A stretch of DNA of 64,000 bases from an uncultured Clostridia bacterium. Its GTDB lineage: Bacteria > Bacillota > Clostridia > Oscillospirales > Acutalibacteraceae. Position 1 is the first letter of the stretch, and each line of letters begins with the position of its first letter. Made by a program: the position numbers and the translations under genes. The notes under the pieces were generated by a model that did not search any database, was not told where the DNA came from, and saw nothing but the letters and a program-made list of their open reading frames with translations. Location: positions 31,577 to 95,576 of the forward strand of contig CANRAU010000007.1 in assembly GCA_947628665.1 (NCBI GenBank), in the 5' to 3' direction. Shown piece after piece: positions 25,231 through 63,828 of the stretch.

Positions 25231-25336
25231 CATTTTATGCTCCGTATTTGACTTGCATTTTTGATTCTTTAAATATGAGGCTTGGCCAAACAGACTATTT
25301 TTTCAAAAATCAAAAAAGTAAAAAGCCCCCGAAAGG
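25231..25336. repeat. Degenerate copy of the prophage right-end (integrase 3' flank, arm-site region)
   Basis: Aligns by eye over ~106 bp with 63614-63719, including GTATTTGACTTGCAT, AGACTATTTTTTCA and AAAAGCCCCCGAAAG. Confidence 0.75.
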
Positions 25337-27960: not shown

Positions 27961-28003
27961 AACACCAATCTTGATAAGCCTTTGTATCAAAATTGGTGTT
28001 TTT
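27961..28003. terminator. Bidirectional hairpin abutting attL
   Basis: AACACCAATCTTGATA-loop-TATCAAAATTGGTGTTTTT. Confidence 0.7.
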
Positions 28004-28053
28004 ATTTGGTTGCGGGGGTGGGACTTGAACCACACGACCTCCGGGTTATGAGC
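28004..28053. repeat. attL (50-bp repeat, 3' part of tRNA-fMet)
   Basis: ATTTGGTTGCGGGGGTGGGACTTGAACCACACGACCTCCGGGTTATGAGC, identical to 63749-63798. Confidence 0.93.
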
Positions 28054-49374: not shown

Positions 49375-50190
49375 TCACCAATTAACGACCATGTTTACAG
49401 CTTCTTTTTGCTGTTCCTGCGTGAGACGCGTATATATAGCTGTCGTCGATACGCTCGAATGTCCCATTACATCCGCAAGCAGTGAAAGGTTCGGATTTTT
49501 CTTTAGAAACTCTATTGCAAATAAATGTCTAAATGAATGCGGGTGCATTACCTTTTGATTGATTTTATATCTTTTAGAAAGTTGCAAAAGCATTTGCGAA
49601 AATCCTCTTGTAGATATTTGATTTCCATATCTGTTTACGCAAAGATAGTCATTCGGCTTCAAATCTTTATAATATTCTTTTGCGTCTTTCTGAAAAGAAT
49701 ATGGAATATATATCCGGCGTATTTTCCCTTTAGTCCACATTTCTGCATAACCACGGTCAAAATCAGATTTCTTTAACCTTATATATTCGCTGATCCGTGC
49801 CCCTGTCACTGCAAGAAGTTTAATATTAAAATACCATTTATAATTTTTGTCATTTAAAAGGCATCGTAATAATTTATTGTACTCTTCTTCAGAAATAACA
49901 TTGCTAATCGCCGTAGCTTGATGAACCTTTAATGTTTTAATCCTATTTTCTCTGTGATTAACCATGTCGCAATAAGCGTTATAGGCGTTAATTTTAATAT
50001 TTATGCTTTTAGGCTTTAATCCGCTTTCTTCCAAAACCTTTTTCCATTCAAGGGCATTTTTCTTGTTATCTTCATCATAGAGTTGAAAAAATTGTTTTAT
50101 TGCGGTAATATATGCCCTTATAGTGTTTACGGACAATTCTTTTTCTTGTAAATAAGACCAAAATTTTTCTATTTCATTCTTTTTATCCAC
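49375..50190 (-). CDS. Second tyrosine recombinase (XerD-like)
   Basis: LAVTGARISEYIRL ... HPHSFRHLFAIEFLKKNPNLSLLADVMGHSSVSTTAIYTRL, i.e. R...HxxR...H...Y catalytic set. Confidence 0.92.
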   Translation of the reverse strand: MDKKNEIEKFWSYLQEKELSVNTIRAYITAIKQFFQLYDEDNKKNALEWKKVLEESGLKPKSINIKINAYNAYCDMVNHRENRIKTLKVHQATAISNVISEEEYNKLLRCLLNDKNYKWYFNIKLLAVTGARISEYIRLKKSDFDRGYAEMWTKGKIRRIYIPYSFQKDAKEYYKDLKPNDYLCVNRYGNQISTRGFSQMLLQLSKRYKINQKVMHPHSFRHLFAIEFLKKNPNLSLLADVMGHSSVSTTAIYTRLTQEQQKEAVNMVVNW

Positions 50191-51390: not shown

Positions 51391-52776
51391 TTATTTTCTG
51401 ATATATTCCCCTATGTACCCGATTACGCGGAGCGCACACGGGATAGCCAGTGAGTTTCCGAGCTGCCGATAGCGCGTTCCGTCGGAGTCCAGTTTGTTGT
51501 ACCAACGCACAAACTGTTCTCTCGTTGGTAGTTTCTTTACGGCCTGACCGCGAATTTGCTTATCGAGCAAATACACTTTTATGAAAAAATCGTATTCGCT
51601 CTCGCTCATATCTTCGATTTTTGGCAGTACCGTCCAGTAATCGGGGTAGCCTTGCAAGCGCTCGCATTCGAGTGGTGTTAAGCGGCGCACGACCCAAGCG
51701 AAAGTGTTGCAGCGTGGATCACCGCCGTTACGATCGATCGTCCGAGCTATTTGTGTCTCGTATATACCGCTGTGTGGGTTATCGGACTGCATTGCATTGC
51801 TTGCCATAGATGATATGTTATACATCACTATTTTCTGATCGTGCATACAGTCAAGCGCATCCGTTTTGTGAGACAATCGTGTGTTGTCAACCTGACCGTT
51901 GCCTATAGCATAGCAAACCGCTGACGGATCTCTAATAGCGATTGTAGGCTCGCATACGACAGTCGAGAAATCCGGCACACGGCTGTTGTGGCCTGCCGTT
52001 ATTGTCGGCGAGGTCATTCCATCGCCGTTTCCCCGGCAGTCGAAGATTCTGCAATCGCTTTCAGCGCGTTTTCCAGCATCTGCGGTAGTTGCTTTCCTCT
52101 CCGCTTCGCGCGGCGTAAGATACCTTTGCACGCCGTCCTGCTTAAATAGTATTTTTTCGGCACAGTCGCTTCCAAAACTTCCGATAAGGTAGATTCGACG
52201 CCGACGTTGGGGGACGCCCCAATATTGAGCGTCGAACAGTCGCCAGGCAACGCATATTCCGCGCCCTCGAACCACTCCGGCGCTTGCCCATCTCCCACTT
52301 GCAGGCATTGGAATATCGGCTTTTGTGATTTCTTCCAGCACGGCTTGAAAGTCGCGCCCATTACGGCTGGAGAATGCTCCGGCAACGTTTTCCCAAACAA
52401 GGAAAGTTGGATACCGTCCATTTGTAGCTCGCCTCATTTCATAGATGATTCTGATCGCTTCAACAAAAAGCCCGCTTCGCGTGGTTTCGTCGTCGCCCTT
52501 TTCTTCGTGTTTAATTCCCTTGCGCTTTCCAGCGACGGATAGGTCCTGACAAGGCGAACCGAACGTGATTATATCCACGGGCGGGATCTTTGCGCCGTTG
52601 ATCTTTGATACATCGCCGTAGTGCTGCATTTCGGGGAAATGATATTTTGTGACCGCGACGCATGCGGGGTCGATCTCTGCCGCCCATACCGGGATTATGC
52701 CGGAAATCTCCGCACAGAGCGGAAATCCACCGATCCCGTCAAATAGGCTGCCGAGCGTTATGCGATTGTTTTCCAT
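51391..52776 (-). CDS. DNA cytosine-5 methyltransferase
   Basis: LGSLFDGIGGFPLCAE, FGSPCQDLSVAGKRKG, ENVAGAFSSRNG, RRRIYLIG, RYRQLGNSLAIPCALRVIGYI; ATG at 52776. Confidence 0.96.
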   Translation of the reverse strand: MENNRITLGSLFDGIGGFPLCAEISGIIPVWAAEIDPACVAVTKYHFPEMQHYGDVSKINGAKIPPVDIITFGSPCQDLSVAGKRKGIKHEEKGDDETTRSGLFVEAIRIIYEMRRATNGRYPTFLVWENVAGAFSSRNGRDFQAVLEEITKADIPMPASGRWASAGVVRGRGICVAWRLFDAQYWGVPQRRRRIYLIGSFGSDCAEKILFKQDGVQRYLTPREAERKATTADAGKRAESDCRIFDCRGNGDGMTSPTITAGHNSRVPDFSTVVCEPTIAIRDPSAVCYAIGNGQVDNTRLSHKTDALDCMHDQKIVMYNISSMASNAMQSDNPHSGIYETQIARTIDRNGGDPRCNTFAWVVRRLTPLECERLQGYPDYWTVLPKIEDMSESEYDFFIKVYLLDKQIRGQAVKKLPTREQFVRWYNKLDSDGTRYRQLGNSLAIPCALRVIGYIGEYIRK

Positions 52777-52777
52777 G

Positions 52778-55285
52778 TTATGCCTGCCCCACGTTCCCAA
52801 GCAAATCGAACAAAGTAGGCACGTCCTTTTCTTCATCCGCTTCGCGCAGATACCCGACACCGTCTCGAAAATATCCGTTGTTCAACTCAATTCCGATGCC
52901 GTATCTGCCGTTATCGACAGCGACCTTTGGAACGGTCATGATGCCGCCGAACGGATCTAAAACAACGTCGCCTGGATTGGAGTATCGGTTAATGATTCTT
53001 TCCACAATGTCGATCTGCAGTGGACAAACGTGCATTTCCTGCCGCCGTCTGCTTTGTGTTGAATTAAGCGTGCGCATACGCAAAATATCATCCCATACTT
53101 CATCTGACCAGCTTCCCGGAGCGACTACCATAAAGCTCGCGGGAAGTTTGTTTTCGGCGTCCAGTTCCTTTGCCAGCTGAACGTGTTCGGCATAATCATA
53201 AACATGATCTCGGCTATACTGCCGATAAACCTTTTGCAGATTTGTGACAGGTGCTGATACAAGTTCCTCTTTCGTGACCAGCCGATCTCCGCTTGAACGC
53301 CAGTAGCCGTGTGCGTCGATTTGCCACTGTGCGCGAGTGTATTCCTCTTTCGTTTTGACTACAGGAACATCTGCATAGGCTCTCGACGTGTCGCTCGGCA
53401 ATTTCCGAAAAAGCAATATGTATTCCGGACAACCGACGCCCATCTTCGTGCCGTCCTTGCATTGCTCCGTCCATCCGAGGCGATAGGTTTGATTGTTTTC
53501 TCGGACAACATCGGTCACGACCGTAATCATACCGAAGTATTGAAATCCATGCTGCATATAGTGCCTGATGCACATGGCGTGGAATGGTTCCATGGTCGGA
53601 AATCCTGTCCCCGTCGCATTGCCGAATAAAACCCTGTCCTTAACATGAACCGCCATAACGCGCCCCGGTTGTAAAATACGAAGCAACTGCGGAGATAGGA
53701 AATCCATCTGTTCAAAGAAACGCTTTGTGTTCTCGTTATGCCCGAAATCGTTGTAGCTCGGTGTGTATTCGTAATGGTTGGAAAACGGGATACTTGTAAG
53801 GATCAAATCTATGCTGTTTTCATCCATTTCCGTTGTTTCCAAAACACAGTCATTGTTGACGGCTGTGAAATGCTTCCCTTGTATTTGCACTCTCTCAACT
53901 CCTATCGTTCGCGCGAGCTTGTCAATCTGCGATACACCCGCAAGCCCGTATTTTTTCACGATCTCCTGCATTTTTTGGGAAAGGTAGTCATGATTTTTCC
54001 ACTTTTCCATCAGCGTATCTAAAATCGGTTGCTCCGCTTCGGTATAAATGATATCGATGATGACCTGCTCCGTTTGCAAAAATCTGTAAATGCGGTGAAT
54101 GGCTTGTATGAAATCATTGAATTCATAATCAATTCCCACAAATATGGCGCGGTGACAATGTTTTTGAAAATTGCAGCCCGACCCCGAGATGCTCTTTTTG
54201 GTCGCAAACAGTCGTGTTTTTCCGTTTGAAAAGTCTAAAACACGACGCTCCCGTTCGTCATAGTCCATAGCGCCGTAAATATCGACCACGCCCGGAATTT
54301 GTCTTTTGATTTCATGCCGCTCCGCTTCGAGATCATGCCACAGAATAAAATGCGCCTCGGGGTCACTGTCTATGATCTCCTTCGCTTTTGCAATACGCTT
54401 GCATATGGATACCTTTTTTTCATTCGCCGCATCCGATAGACTGACGGCCGCATCGCGCAAAAACTTGATCTGTCCGTCTTTTTCCTGCCCCTCAAAGTAT
54501 GCGTCCGCTATCTTGTGCGTGCGCACGTCTAAAGGCGGCAACGCATAGCCTGTGTCGTCATAGCCTAAATCTGACGGCAAGTGAATGAATAAAGCCCATG
54601 TCGACATCCAAATCCAAAACTCTTCTTCTTTGTGCGGATACAATGTCAGATTGTTCGCTTTTGTGCTGTCACGCTTGAAAAAACGCGTTAGCGCCTGCCC
54701 TGTATCCATAACCTCTAAATATCCTGCATAGTGGATAAGCTCTTTGTACTTATTGGGAGATGGCGTCGCTGTGGATACGAGCTTATACTCTACCCCTTTG
54801 AATTTATCTAAAAAGGTCTGATATGTCTTACTGCCGAAGCTGCGCAAAACGGATGCCTCATCAAGACTTGTCGCGGTAAATCGCTTGGGATCTATATCGC
54901 CGTCCCGCACGCGTTCATAGTTTGTCAGCACTATATCCGTATCGGCCGCTTCCGCCTCTGCCATCGTCTTAACGTATTTGGGGGGCTTTTCCCAACCTAA
55001 AATATTTACTGCGTCCATTTGGAACTCTTGTTTAACGCCTAACGGTACGACGATTATCGCTTTGCCGCCTTTGTGCGCCGTTATGATTCTGCAAAATTCC
55101 AGCTGCTGAACCGTTTTTCCAAGTCCGAAGCTCTCAAAAAGCGCGCGTCTGCCGCCGCGTACCGCCCACTGCACCGCATCCCGCTGATGCGGTTTCAGTT
55201 TCGGGCTGATTTCGCTTTGGCTGATTTCAAATCCCGATATGGGCGCAACTTCGATCTTGGATTTTAAGAATTGGATATAATTCAT
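52778..55285 (-). CDS. SNF2/DEAD-type helicase fused to a beta-class DNA N4/N6-methyltransferase
   Basis: Helicase half: PHQRDAVQWAVRGGRRALFESFGLGKT, VLTNYERVRDG, QAIHRIYRFLQTE. MTase half: DLILTSIPFSNHYEY (motif IV) then VVLDPFGGIMTVPKVAVDNGRYGIGIELN (motif I). Confidence 0.92.
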   Translation of the reverse strand: MNYIQFLKSKIEVAPISGFEISQSEISPKLKPHQRDAVQWAVRGGRRALFESFGLGKTVQQLEFCRIITAHKGGKAIIVVPLGVKQEFQMDAVNILGWEKPPKYVKTMAEAEAADTDIVLTNYERVRDGDIDPKRFTATSLDEASVLRSFGSKTYQTFLDKFKGVEYKLVSTATPSPNKYKELIHYAGYLEVMDTGQALTRFFKRDSTKANNLTLYPHKEEEFWIWMSTWALFIHLPSDLGYDDTGYALPPLDVRTHKIADAYFEGQEKDGQIKFLRDAAVSLSDAANEKKVSICKRIAKAKEIIDSDPEAHFILWHDLEAERHEIKRQIPGVVDIYGAMDYDERERRVLDFSNGKTRLFATKKSISGSGCNFQKHCHRAIFVGIDYEFNDFIQAIHRIYRFLQTEQVIIDIIYTEAEQPILDTLMEKWKNHDYLSQKMQEIVKKYGLAGVSQIDKLARTIGVERVQIQGKHFTAVNNDCVLETTEMDENSIDLILTSIPFSNHYEYTPSYNDFGHNENTKRFFEQMDFLSPQLLRILQPGRVMAVHVKDRVLFGNATGTGFPTMEPFHAMCIRHYMQHGFQYFGMITVVTDVVRENNQTYRLGWTEQCKDGTKMGVGCPEYILLFRKLPSDTSRAYADVPVVKTKEEYTRAQWQIDAHGYWRSSGDRLVTKEELVSAPVTNLQKVYRQYSRDHVYDYAEHVQLAKELDAENKLPASFMVVAPGSWSDEVWDDILRMRTLNSTQSRRRQEMHVCPLQIDIVERIINRYSNPGDVVLDPFGGIMTVPKVAVDNGRYGIGIELNNGYFRDGVGYLREADEEKDVPTLFDLLGNVGQA

Positions 55286-55707
55286 ATGTCCTTTCTCCCT
55301 GTTATCGTTGCCCCATCACTTTTTTTACTACAGATCGTTGCTTTTTTGAGCGCTTCGTCCAAATCAAAGCTGCTTGTTTTACTCGGTCTGTTGTCGTAAT
55401 TTCCCTCCATGATTTTTGAAAAGTTTTCGGGCTTTAGGATCCAGTCGATCCCGCATTTGCCCCACCGCCCGTTGCGGCCGCTTAAGAAATCGCTTTTTTC
55501 AACCCGGGCAAAGACTTCACCGAGCTTATTGCAACCGTATCGGCGGATCGCTCGTTTTGCGCGGTCGGTCCTGCCCGGCGACCACGTGTCCACATCCATC
55601 GGCTTCGGCAGGCTCGGACATTTTTGTATAAACAGATCACGCAGATATTTAAGGTCTTCCTTGGTGACTTTTATTTCCATTTTGGCTCTCCTTTTTTTGC
55701 TGTTCAA
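55282..55707 (-). CDS. Phage replication-protein-like (C-terminal replisome type domain)
   Basis: VEKSDFLSGRNGRWGKCGIDWILKPENFSKIMEGNYDNR, typical of phage replication-protein C-termini. Confidence 0.7.
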   Translation of the reverse strand: MNSKKRRAKMEIKVTKEDLKYLRDLFIQKCPSLPKPMDVDTWSPGRTDRAKRAIRRYGCNKLGEVFARVEKSDFLSGRNGRWGKCGIDWILKPENFSKIMEGNYDNRPSKTSSFDLDEALKKATICSKKSDGATITGRKDI

Positions 55708-55926: not shown

Positions 55927-55945
55927 GGACTATGGAATGTAGTCC
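55927..55945. other. Hairpin overlapping the rep stop codon (candidate origin/nick-site structure)
   Basis: GGACTA-tggaatg-TAGTCC. Confidence 0.4.
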
Positions 55946-56856
55946 GTCGTGATCCATTCGTCCTCCTCCCACCGAGGCGGCGCGCCATCGGTTCGATACA
56001 GAACCGCCGACAAATACCAATGCCCATTGTATGTGTTGAATCTTGCGTAGCCACGCAGGAAGCGATACCCTTTGTATATCCTTTCCCAAAACGCCCGATC
56101 ATCGACCCGCTCGGTCGCCATGCGTGCGACCGTCGAGCGTGCGATCATCCCGTCCTTTATCTTTTCTTTTGGGCGTTGAAGGTTTCGCGAGCAGCTGAAT
56201 CGCTTTGCACCCTGCGGGTCTTTGCTCATGTATTTGGCGGCCGCTTCGGGTCCGAACTTGTCCGGCTGATAGTTATTGCAATTTGTTCGCAGTCCGTTCG
56301 TCCACATTGCCTCCAATGTCTTGCTGTCAATGCCGCCTGTCAGGAACAAATGAAAATGCCAGTTCACGCGCCCTGCATAGATTCCTCTTTTGTAAGTCTG
56401 CTTTTCGATTACGTAAATGTATTTGAACGGCGCTTCCAGCTTTTGGATCGCCGCCCGCAGCTTCTCCACGGCGGACGATAAGTACGGATTTTCCGGCATC
56501 TTCGCCGCTGCGCTTTCTGCCGCTGCCAAGTCTTTACGCAACCGCTTCGCTTCCGATTTCCTCTTTGTTTTCACGCGGCGAAGATAGTTTACTATATCCC
56601 GCCGCGCTTCCGCTTCCGACTGTGGGGCTTTTGCAGGTTCGTATGTCGGGTGCATGAGATAGTCCGTTGTATTAAAGTTCGCATTCGCGTATCGGATCAG
56701 CTTTTTTGTAGCCTGCACCTGATTGTATCTTTTCTGCTCCGCCGTGGATGGCTTTGTCTTCGGCGCGCGGGTTGGCAGGCGGCGACCGTCTGCGAAAACC
56801 GGGTAGAAGTCCGCTTCCAAGAGCGGCCCTGAGTATGTTCGCTTTTCTCGTTGCAC
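55930..56856 (-). CDS. HUH-endonuclease-like rolling-circle replication protein
   Basis: HUH motif NWHFHLFLTGG; Y motif EAAAKYMSKD followed by RFSCSRNLQRP. Confidence 0.7.
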   Translation of the reverse strand: MQREKRTYSGPLLEADFYPVFADGRRLPTRAPKTKPSTAEQKRYNQVQATKKLIRYANANFNTTDYLMHPTYEPAKAPQSEAEARRDIVNYLRRVKTKRKSEAKRLRKDLAAAESAAAKMPENPYLSSAVEKLRAAIQKLEAPFKYIYVIEKQTYKRGIYAGRVNWHFHLFLTGGIDSKTLEAMWTNGLRTNCNNYQPDKFGPEAAAKYMSKDPQGAKRFSCSRNLQRPKEKIKDGMIARSTVARMATERVDDRAFWERIYKGYRFLRGYARFNTYNGHWYLSAVLYRTDGAPPRWEEDEWITTDYIP

Positions 56857-56868
56857 TTTATCCCGCCC

Positions 56869-57348
56869 TCACTTTCTCGCGAGCTGCGGCATATCCGCAA
56901 AGACGTGATTGTTGACCCGTCCTGTTAATTCAAACACGGCGTTGTATAGGGCGGTGCGGAGATATGTTTTTGTATGCTTGATTTCATATGTCGCTTTCTC
57001 GTAGTTTTCGATCACGTGCAGGACGTGTTCGTGGCAGAGGCGATTGTAGATTTCTGCCACCCATTCGGCAGTCAGAGCATTTCCGGCGATCCGCACGGTG
57101 GCGGTATCCGGCAGTTTCAAGACCTCCGCAATGATCATCGCAATTTCTTCCGCTTGCTGTACATCTTTTTGATCGAAGCAATCAAAATCGATTTGCGCCT
57201 TTACGGTTTCGAGAAGTGCCGAGAACGACATCGCCCTTTTCACCTCTGCGGGGAAATGCCGGACTTGACTTGACGCTGACTTTGACTTTTCGCATAACGC
57301 TTGATGATTTCTTTGTTCCATTTTGGCGACCTCTCTGTTTTCGTTCAA
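56869..57348 (-). CDS. Phage hypothetical protein
   Basis: 159 aa; early operon. Confidence 0.65.
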   Translation of the reverse strand: MNENREVAKMEQRNHQALCEKSKSASSQVRHFPAEVKRAMSFSALLETVKAQIDFDCFDQKDVQQAEEIAMIIAEVLKLPDTATVRIAGNALTAEWVAEIYNRLCHEHVLHVIENYEKATYEIKHTKTYLRTALYNAVFELTGRVNNHVFADMPQLARK

Positions 57349-57420
57349 ATTTGCGCGGCCTTGGTTGATGAAATACTATACAATACAAGGCCGCTCGCGG
57401 GCATAAAACCCGCTATCCTA

Positions 57421-57449
57421 TTGACTTTTCGCCGCCGCTGTGCTATCAT
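57421..57449 (+). promoter_or_regulatory. Sigma-70 promoter for a plus-strand small RNA
   Basis: TTGACT - 17 bp - TATCAT, antiparallel to the surrounding operon. Confidence 0.7.
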
Positions 57450-57455
57450 AAATAT

Positions 57456-57529
57456 GTAGTTAGGACAGGGCGGCGTAAAGTCGTTTTGCCGGGGCTTTCC
57501 GAGTGGGATCGGAAAGCCTTTATTTTTTT
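57456..57529 (+). ncRNA. Candidate ~74-nt prophage small RNA (OOP-like position)
   Basis: Promoter immediately upstream; internal CGGC...GCCG hairpin; ends in GGCTTTCCGA-gtggga-TCGGAAAGCC + TTTATTTTTTT. Confidence 0.6.
57493..57529 (+). terminator. Intrinsic terminator of the small RNA
   Basis: 10-bp GC-containing stem followed by TTTATTTTTTT; no T-run on the opposite strand. Confidence 0.82.
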
Positions 57530-61022: not shown

Positions 61023-61072
61023 AGGAGGATTTTATGTATTGTCAAAAATGTGGAAAAGAAGTGAGCGGAAAC
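60992..61072. repeat. 81-bp direct repeat, copy 1
   Basis: 80/81 identical to 61741-61821. Confidence 0.95.
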
Positions 61073-61714
61073 TACTGCTCAAATTGCGGAGCGGCTGTCG
61101 TCACCTTGCCTAACGACGCCATAGAGCAGACGGCGACGGAACCTATTACAACTTCTGCCCCCGATTTCCCTGTTAAAAAAGTCAGGTCCTCTAAGCCTCT
61201 ACATATAATCGGGATTATTCTTTCTATTCTCAATTTTTTTGCCACAGCTTATTTAATCTTTACTTCTGCATTATCATTTGATGTCGATTATGTCGACGTT
61301 ACGATATGGATAGCAGCTTGTTGCGCGCCATTTTCCCTCTCGGTACTCCTCGGTTCTGCTTTCCGAGGAAAAAGTAAAATTGTGTCATCTATTTTTTATA
61401 TGCTCTCCATCTTCCCCTCAATCTTTTTGTGCTGCATAAATGTTGCTTACACGGGGGACTTTCTTATATCTGCACTTCTCACGATTCCATTTGTTGTATG
61501 TGCTTGGATTTTTGGAAATCGCTGTGTACCCCAAAAAACTGCAAAGGTACAGATTTTAGCCTATGCTTTATTTGTCGCTTTGATTGGCGGTTTGGTTCTT
61601 TATCTATATAGCGGGGAAATTGCCCTCAATCATGCTGCAAGTGAATTGTTTGAAGGAATGGCCGAATACAGTTTTATGGATGAAGTCGAAACAGCAAAAA
61701 ATTTGTTTGAGTAA
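61034..61714 (+). CDS. Zinc-ribbon membrane protein (multi-TM)
   Basis: MYCQKCGKEVSGNYCSNCGAAV; at least four TM segments. Confidence 0.8.
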   Translation: MYCQKCGKEVSGNYCSNCGAAVVTLPNDAIEQTATEPITTSAPDFPVKKVRSSKPLHIIGIILSILNFFATAYLIFTSALSFDVDYVDVTIWIAACCAPFSLSVLLGSAFRGKSKIVSSIFYMLSIFPSIFLCCINVAYTGDFLISALLTIPFVVCAWIFGNRCVPQKTAKVQILAYALFVALIGGLVLYLYSGEIALNHAASELFEGMAEYSFMDEVETAKNLFE

Positions 61715-61740: not shown

Positions 61741-61821
61741 TCCCGAAGTGATCCGCTTCGGGGAAGAATAGAGGAGGATTTTATGTATTGTCAAAAATGT
61801 GGAAAAGAAGTGAGCGGAAAC
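61741..61821. repeat. 81-bp direct repeat, copy 2
   Basis: Contains the same hairpin, RBS and first 13 codons as copy 1. Confidence 0.95.
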
Positions 61822-62355
61822 GACACGCCCAAATCTGACCCCGCCCCCGCTGCGGCGGCAAGCAACGGTTCTGCGGAAAATGTTCCACCCGTCGAAAGCA
61901 CCGCTTCGACGGCGGACATCACCTCTACAGTCGGCGTTGATCCGACAAGCGACTCCGCCTCTACCAAAAGCTCCGATTTTAAAATTAAGATATTTTCCTA
62001 TATTATCGTTTTAATTCTCGTCTTTGGTATTTCTTTTGGCGTCGTTCATTTTCTGTTTGGCGGTAAGGAGGAAGAGGAACAACACCCGACTTTTATTGAT
62101 AATAAAGTTGCCGCTGAAATCGCCTTAGAGGATTATGTCAAGTATCCCGACACATTAGAACTCTCCTTCTACGAGGAAGATTGGCAGTTTGTAACAAATG
62201 ACAACAAGCGTGTAAAAATGGAAAGCACCTTTACTTGCCAAAATGCATTTGGCGTACCTGAACGGCATAGTTTCGTCTTAATCCTCACTTATTCTGATGA
62301 TTACGAAAATTTCACAATAAATGATTTGACTATCGACAAAGAGGAATACATATAA
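61783..62355 (+). CDS. Membrane protein with half zinc ribbon (single TM)
   Basis: MYCQKCGKEVSGND then Ser/Thr/Ala-rich linker, one TM, soluble C-terminal domain. Confidence 0.75.
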   Translation: MYCQKCGKEVSGNDTPKSDPAPAAAASNGSAENVPPVESTASTADITSTVGVDPTSDSASTKSSDFKIKIFSYIIVLILVFGISFGVVHFLFGGKEEEEQHPTFIDNKVAAEIALEDYVKYPDTLELSFYEEDWQFVTNDNKRVKMESTFTCQNAFGVPERHSFVLILTYSDDYENFTINDLTIDKEEYI

Positions 62356-62426: not shown

Positions 62427-63563
62427 ATGCCAAAAAAATCCAACACGCGCCGTGCCGACGGAAGAATCGCTGTACAGGTATATCTTGGACGGGTAAACGG
62501 AAAACGGCAATATAAAACCGTCTATGGGAAAACACAGAAAGAAGCCGATCAAAAGGCTACTGCTCTGAAAGCAAAATTGAATAAGGGACTGGATATATCC
62601 GGTGGAAATGATACTTTCGGCGCATGGTCTACGTTTTGGTTACAGTCTAAAAAAGTAAACGTTGTGCCTGAGCATTATCATCTTCTTGAAAGTCGGCTGG
62701 CTTTTTTTACCCAAAGAATATCACAACAAAAAATAACAAGCATTCGTCCTGTAGATTTGCAGCCCATGTTTGATGAATTGTCCATTTGTAACCCGCACAC
62801 AGGAAAGCCTTCCGCAAAGAAAACACTGCGTTCCTATCACCAAATTCTTGTTTCTGTATTTGATTATGCAATTGATAATCGGATAATAGACTTCAACCCA
62901 GCTGAGAGAATTCACTTGTTGAAAACTGCTCCGCAAAAAACGCGTCGTGCATTAACCAAAGAAGAACGAAGGCGTGTTGACGAATTCGAGCATAGAGGAA
63001 AAACAGCAATCATGCTTTTGATGTACTCCGGTCTGCGCCGTGGCGAGGCAACCGCGCTTCGTTGGTCTGATATTGATTTGGTCAACGGCACTATCACTGT
63101 TTCGAGATCATATAACTATAAAGCAAAGGCTTTTAAATCTCCAAAAAACGGAAAATCCCGATGCGTTTTTATACCTAATAAATTAGTTCAATATTTGAAA
63201 CAAATACCTCATAAAAGCGAAAATGATTTTGTTATCGTTTCCGCAAAAGGAACTATGATGTCTATTGACGCATGGGATCGCCTTTTGGAAAGCTATCTTT
63301 TTCAAATGAACTATAAGTATGGCGGATTTACTTGCGGCTTACACACAAATGAAAAAATACCAATGGTGATCGAACCGTTTGGTCTACATGACCTTCGCCA
63401 TACATTCTGCACGATGATGTATGAAGCTGGAATTGACGTGCTTGTTGCGCAGGAGCAAATGGGACATGCCGACCCGAAAACTACTTTAAATATTTATACA
63501 CATCTGCAAATGGAACATAAAGCAACAAATATTTCAAAATTGAACGATTATTTGTCTGAGTAA
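62427..63563 (+). CDS. int: Phage integrase (tyrosine recombinase)
   Basis: N-terminal AP2-like/arm-binding region; MYSGLRRGEATALRWSDI, HDLRHTFCTMMYEAGIDVLVAQEQMGHADPKTTLNIYTHL; adjacent to attR. Confidence 0.96.
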   Translation: MPKKSNTRRADGRIAVQVYLGRVNGKRQYKTVYGKTQKEADQKATALKAKLNKGLDISGGNDTFGAWSTFWLQSKKVNVVPEHYHLLESRLAFFTQRISQQKITSIRPVDLQPMFDELSICNPHTGKPSAKKTLRSYHQILVSVFDYAIDNRIIDFNPAERIHLLKTAPQKTRRALTKEERRRVDEFEHRGKTAIMLLMYSGLRRGEATALRWSDIDLVNGTITVSRSYNYKAKAFKSPKNGKSRCVFIPNKLVQYLKQIPHKSENDFVIVSAKGTMMSIDAWDRLLESYLFQMNYKYGGFTCGLHTNEKIPMVIEPFGLHDLRHTFCTMMYEAGIDVLVAQEQMGHADPKTTLNIYTHLQMEHKATNISKLNDYLSE

Positions 63564-63618: not shown

Positions 63619-63652
63619 TTGACTTGTATTTGACTTGCATCTTTGACTCTTT
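63619..63652. promoter_or_regulatory. Candidate integrase arm-type sites (right arm)
   Basis: TTGACTTGTA (63619), TTGACTTGCA (63630), TTGACTCTTT (63643). Confidence 0.55.
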
Positions 63653-63707
63653 AAGTATAAAATTGGGCGAAATAGACTATTTTTTCAGATTTCCAAAAAG
63701 CAAAAAA

Positions 63708-63747
63708 GCCCCCGAAAGCCTTGTAAAACAAGCACTTTCGGGGGTTT
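63708..63747. terminator. Bidirectional intrinsic terminator at the integrase end
   Basis: GCCCCCGAAAGcCTTGtaaaaCAAGcaCTTTCGGGGGttt. Confidence 0.85.
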
Positions 63748-63748
63748 G

Positions 63749-63828
<80 letters not shown>

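Follow-up and report, generated by a model that had tools for sequence, protein, structure and literature searches.

The DNA analysed here (64,000 nucleotides, referred to as the window) contains a prophage of ~35.7 kb that is bounded by 59-nt repeats at 27995–28053 and 63740–63798, the right one of which overlaps a tRNA gene. Judged by their translations, genes on the − strand of the prophage look like terminase, portal, capsid and tail genes. The second gene to the left of a short promoter–terminator unit on the + strand (Table 1) encodes a 308-aa protein, Rep, which matches PF23343 (REP_ORF2-G2P) above the cut-off and phrog_3584 (replication initiation, 1e-61). The HxH and YxxK motifs are near-invariant in an alignment of 61 Reps; H167, H169 and Y209 are kept in 58–60 of the 61 aligned relatives and are invariant in a second set (n = 16). 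The AlphaFold model of Rep (pLDDT 86.6) matched siphovirus and microvirus replication proteins in a viral library. A PDB sequence search with the Rep profile returned no match, and a PDB fold search with the model gave nothing significant, with pMV158 RepB appearing only at E about 1; the evidence for the fold is that of the viral structure library and the motifs. Because of the PF23343 and phrog_3584 matches, the conserved H/H/Y residues and the matches of the model to viral replication proteins, the protein is identified as an HUH-type rolling-circle initiator.

Table 1. Features in and upstream of the rep region of the prophage; coordinates are positions in the window.
Feature	Position	Strand	Description
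HUH rolling-circle replication initiator (Rep)	55930–56856	−	H167, H169, Y209, K212; PF23343, phrog_3584
DUF6017 protein	56869–57348	−	lies between origin and rep; ATG at 57321 is the likelier start
Inverted repeat around putative nick site	57355–57394		GCGGCCTTG / CAAGGCCGC
Putative double-strand origin (dso)	57363–57393	−	conserved block; core 57372–57392, TYGTYG-like flank
Short hairpin GCGGG...CCCGC	57397–57413		between origin motif and promoter
Extended −10 promoter	57421–57449	+	TTGACT, 17-nt spacer, TGC-TATCAT; points away from rep
Promoter −35	57421–57426	+	TTGACT
Promoter extended −10	57441–57449	+	TGC upstream of TATCAT (57444–57449)
Promoter hairpin	57423–57482		arms 57423–57436 / 57469–57482, 13/14 complementary; encloses −10 and start site
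Predicted RNA, ~74 nt	57456–57529	+	candidate primer and/or antisense RNA; from fold
Intrinsic terminator	57491–57529	+ only	stem 57491–57520 (12 pairs), then T-run

Several other features of the prophage were recorded. Directly behind Rep, 55282–55707 encodes a protein that resembles the C-terminal part of DnaD-type helicase loaders; the Rep operon mixes theta-type and rolling-circle parts. A single ORF (52778–55285) combines a DNA helicase with a DNA methyltransferase domain and lies beside a further DNA methyltransferase gene (51391–52860). Besides the integrase (62427–63563), the prophage carries a second integrase-type tyrosine recombinase (49375–50190). The adjoining genes 61034–61714 and 61783–62355 have a common 84-nt start region that is 98% identical (N-terminus MYCQKCGKEVSGN), are each preceded by a nearly identical hairpin, and diverge after the start region. 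An 87-nt direct repeat, 80% identical, occurs at 25244–25330, outside the left prophage end, and at 63626–63712, near the right end; both copies adjoin tRNA genes and may have been left by an integration that took place earlier at a similar site.

The promoter–terminator unit lies in an intergenic gap, and neither flanking gene is cII-like. The original prediction, in which the unit was proposed to resemble the OOP RNA of phage lambda, placed in this gap an opposing + strand promoter followed by an RNA of ~74 nt with an internal hairpin, a one-direction terminator and no credible ORF. The promoter was confirmed, with an extended −10 element in addition, and transcription would be expected to start at ~57456. 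Two hairpins make up the predicted fold of the 74-nt RNA (−33.1 kcal/mol, z −5.0), in agreement with the predicted internal hairpin and terminator, and the ORFs that overlap it begin with TTG or GTG and look spurious. The gap has the predicted length of 197 bp with the TTG start of the DUF6017 gene at 57348; with the likelier ATG at 57321, which is preceded by a good ribosome site, it is 224 bp. The inverted repeat overlapping the promoter, the conserved block closer to rep and the nature of the neighbouring Rep were not part of that prediction. The Rfam gathering score was reached in the window by three tRNAs only, with no family match for the predicted RNA.

Since shuffled DNA has no fewer promoter-like and terminator-like sites (10 promoter-like sites in an 8-kb stretch compared with 11.1 in shuffles, and 8 terminator-like sites compared with 10.5), this one sequence by itself is unconvincing and comparison is needed. 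When the prophage was scanned for promoters scoring at least 10 that overlap an inverted repeat, the repeat of this unit scored 11.5; none of 25 shuffles attained this, their maximum being 8.

Relatives of Rep were found in 40/398 genomes sampled in the host family and in 64/396 genomes of the order sample, as well as in Latilactobacillus, Terrisporobacter and Faecalibacterium phages and one Paraclostridium plasmid record. The genome counts came from whole-genome searches; a Rep search of a genome-contig collection yielded no related loci, and a DNA search with a 1-kb block found no match among phage records. Tailed dsDNA phages with HUH rolling-circle initiators thus seem common in gut Firmicutes. 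In the open literature we found no description of the second-strand origin of such phages.

Upstream of rep, 53/61 Rep loci, including those of temperate tailed phages, carry a near-invariant motif, TnGTnGnTnnGnTAATAnnCAnTACAAGnCCG, which reads about CGGGCTTGTAATGGGTATTAAC on the rep strand. Seven of its columns are invariant or nearly so among 47 non-redundant loci (two of TAATA, the AC and AG of TACAAG, and one near it). In the window the core is AATACTATACAATACAAGGCC on the + strand and GGCCTTGTATTGTATAGTATT on the − strand, and this copy is the sole match in the window to a looser origin pattern. The weight matrix of the motif was trained partly on Rep loci; a motif-only scan of 85,462 species genomes, which is independent, returned 22 loci (two of them repeating earlier loci), and all 21 with room for the gene carry Rep on the expected strand (E ≤ 1e-24). 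The motif was not found upstream of rep in the Faecalibacterium phages Toutatis and Lelie (L062 and L063), whose Reps are distant relatives. The Rep proteins of phiX174 (protein A) and pC194 nick after CTTG in CTTG-ATA. The CTTG of the motif resembles these sites and points to nicking of the rep strand in the prophage as well; the nick is predicted after CTTG on the − strand, at about 57386/57385. The motif predicts both an origin and its initiator from sequence alone.

The promoter–terminator unit recurs beside this motif. Among the 47 loci, promoters located on the side of the motif that faces away from rep (p ≤ 0.05 against dinucleotide shuffles) were found on the antisense strand in 24, compared with 3 on the rep strand. 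The motif-only loci gave the same picture, with a promoter score of at least 10 on the antisense strand in 12/22 and on the rep strand in 1/22. A terminator (−10 kcal/mol or better) follows on the promoter strand in 28/31 promoter-bearing loci and on the opposite strand in 5/31. The −35 begins 16–72 nt from the motif, and most loci have, in a position equivalent to 57397–57413, a hairpin of differing sequence between motif and promoter. The combination of promoter and overlapping inverted repeat, together with the conserved arrangement, is convincing where single promoter-like or terminator-like matches are not. Conservation of the two in related prophages had been named as the test of the original prediction and was borne out, as was its picture of a self-terminating unit that opposes the early operon beside a replication gene. 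By these counts, the short transcription unit is real, and its conservation extends from phages of Clostridia to those of Lactobacillales. Roughly half of the loci show no clear −35 but a weaker, TATA-rich core, and some (L047, L053, L073 and L077–L080) contain little besides the origin motif. Among those without a clear −35 but with the TATA-rich core kept (L013–L016, L020, L023, L028, L034, L042, L048, L084 and L091), the core is often palindromic, e.g. CTATATTATATAGG, and often followed by a hairpin. Such loci may start the same RNA in another way or may have lost the function.

The promoter overlaps a hairpin that begins within the −35 and extends beyond the start site; as single-stranded DNA it folds with a z of −5.7 in the window. 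Across loci, the −35 and spacer pair with DNA 15–40 nt into the transcript, and many of them have a stem whose first paired base is the third of the −35. The sequences of the arms vary among loci and their complementarity is kept. For each locus, complementarity of the −35 and spacer was scored against the 62 nt that follow the −10, both in that locus itself and in all the others. It averaged 8.17 for the own locus and 5.45 for the others, a difference reached in 0/20,000 permutations (23 loci); in eight new loci the averages were 7.31 and 5.21 (p 0.0003). The single-strand pairing profile of the 23 loci rises from the third base of the −35, is high in the spacer, falls off once the −10 is reached and recovers in the right arm. 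The mean z of the promoter hairpin is −2.8, with 14/23 loci below −2, compared with −1.1 and 4/23 loci for the 5′ part of the RNA alone. By these comparisons, the conserved feature is the hairpin that includes the untranscribed −35 and spacer, not the internal hairpin of the RNA. Because one arm of the hairpin is absent from the small RNA, selection acts either on single-stranded DNA or on the mRNA of the opposite strand. A hairpin on one of these molecules can account for a covarying untranscribed arm; a small-RNA model cannot. The asymmetry of G–T wobbles, judged by eye, was too sparse to indicate which strand folds.

On balance, and with slightly better than even confidence, we read 57355–57529 as a rolling-circle origin cassette in which an RNA-polymerase-primed single-strand origin (sso) lies next to and 5′ of the dso. 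The short opposing RNA unit most likely serves to start second-strand synthesis rather than lambda-OOP-like regulation. Rolling-circle elements copy their displaced strand from an sso, often a folded region that is read as a promoter by the host RNA polymerase; plasmid sso's are orientation-specific and mostly located upstream of the dso, so that they are exposed only once the leading strand is nearly complete (PMC4595007). The prophage has an HUH Rep and a linked origin motif, which, judged by its genes, place it among such elements. Rep would nick the rep-coding (−) strand at the conserved CTTG motif, and leading-strand synthesis would displace this strand, exposing the region just 5′ of the nick last. 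The displaced strand would then fold such that the stem holds the −35 and spacer double-stranded and the loop exposes the −10 and start site. This folded promoter would be recognised by the host RNA polymerase, giving a short RNA in the + direction on the displaced strand; transcription would end at the terminator, and the RNA would prime second-strand synthesis. On the strand that should be displaced, the unit is located 5′ of the dso, and its orientation is constant relative to rep and dso, the strand predicted to be nicked being the one indicated by the CTTG resemblance. The fold, the 23-locus profile and the covariation all point to a single strand that forms a promoter-containing hairpin, and position, orientation, hairpin and promoter fit an sso by analogy with plasmids. 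A scan of pUB110 for the same promoter-hairpin geometry, made blind, had its top match at 1320 (+), antisense to rep, in a block common to unrelated small plasmids, which we take to be ssoU. The match was reached in 2/40 shuffles and is thus not rare, and as a positive control it is no more than suggestive; scans of pC194, pT181 and M13 gave no clear match to this geometry. Several points stand against an sso, among them the loci that lack a clear −35 or have little besides the origin motif. The near-consensus promoter and terminator should also be active in double-stranded prophage DNA, which a pure single-strand promoter does not need; the −10 in the loop of the displaced strand is present as its template side, whereas sigma reads the other one; and the early mRNA could form the hairpin just as well.

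The main rival reading is that the + strand RNA is an antisense control RNA, which would pair with the leader of the early/rep mRNA and lower Rep synthesis through attenuation, a block to translation or RNase III cleavage, like lambda OOP or the antisense RNAs of rolling-circle plasmids; such an RNA could hold Rep off in the lysogen. The promoter and terminator look designed for double-stranded DNA, the predicted RNA is complementary over its whole length to intergenic sequence of the rep operon, and its size of ~74 nt and its place fit those of plasmid RNAs such as pT181 RNAI (87 nt) and pSK41 RNAI (~83 nt, ~100 nt upstream of rep; PMC5703833); in four loci (L010, L012, L021 and L022) some 80 nt separate the −35 from rep. 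However, the RNA lacks the −35 and spacer that form part of the paired arm, and the 5′ hairpin of the RNA itself is not conserved. Attenuation or sequestration would also need a second partner for this arm nearer rep; a search for a rep-side partner of the left arm, as in a pT181-type switch, gave no own-locus signal (p 0.14 to 0.67). Copy control would moreover be of little use to a lytic phage. We consider antisense control rather unlikely as the main function, although an antisense effect on the early mRNA is conceivable, and sso and antisense RNA may both be true. An all-in-one origin, in which a promoter hairpin next to the near-invariant nick motif acts as an antisense RNA gene in double-stranded DNA and as a primer site in single-stranded DNA, is put forward tentatively, as a doubtful extension of this idea. 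If it is correct, one element would couple Rep control with second-strand synthesis, and it would be carried by a widespread group of tailed temperate phages of Clostridia and Lactobacillales.

Control through supercoiling or through Rep binding is also possible, with the covariation less well explained. A strong short unit could leave in its wake negative supercoils that aid extrusion of the dso hairpin for nicking, in line with the short distance of the −35 from the motif, the strong promoters reading away from it and the hairpin between the two; such transcription-coupled activation leaves the covariation of −35 and spacer with transcribed DNA unexplained, and we regard it as improbable. 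That the repeats are half-sites for a Rep dimer, their specificity drifting with each Rep, would agree with arms that differ between loci with diverged Reps. The length and spacing of the arms are too variable for this (the right arm starts 1–32 nt after the −10), and the repeat is locked to promoter positions, which makes Rep half-sites very improbable. For the favoured RNA-polymerase-primed sso, the motif makes strand, nick and primer directly testable, and the covariation signature could be used to find promoters active on single-stranded DNA.

Compared with known systems, the unit resembles lambda OOP RNA (77 nt), which is self-terminating and opposes the early operon beside the replication genes (PMC3349717), a likeness at the level of sequence. 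OOP is antisense to the end of cII and lies near a theta-type origin (PMC3349717), whereas the prophage RNA is intergenic, with no cII-like gene whose 3′ end it could oppose, and belongs to a rep operon with an HUH Rep in place of a theta-type origin with O/P-like genes, the DnaD-like protein notwithstanding. Of the proposed OOP likeness, the short opposing self-terminating unit therefore stands, and the regulator role is disfavoured by the conserved untranscribed arm and the HUH Rep. The plasmid antisense RNAs pT181 RNAI, pMV158 RNAII and pSK41 RNAI are of the same size and lie upstream of rep on the opposite strand, and a short RNA opposite the rep leader is predicted here as well, judged from its sequence only. 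Mutually exclusive leader structures of the pT181 and pSK41 type were not found, there being no self-specific pairing partner on the rep side, and the conserved pairing involves untranscribed DNA. The predicted hairpin is also similar to Frpo of F-type plasmids, in which a single strand imitates a double-stranded promoter by folding (PMC11541004); Frpo drives genes of the leading region in conjugation, whereas the prophage unit would give an RNA of ~74 nt without a gene. The closest match in presumed mode of action, a putative one, is to ssoA and ssoU of Gram-positive rolling-circle plasmids, in which a folded single strand is recognised by RNA polymerase and primed with a short RNA. These origins are orientation-specific and lie 5′ of the dso in most plasmids (PMC4595007, PMC5703833), as the prophage unit would. 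In contrast to ssoA and ssoU, the unit described here occurs in tailed temperate phages, is fixed beside the dso, and has a near-consensus promoter and an intrinsic terminator.
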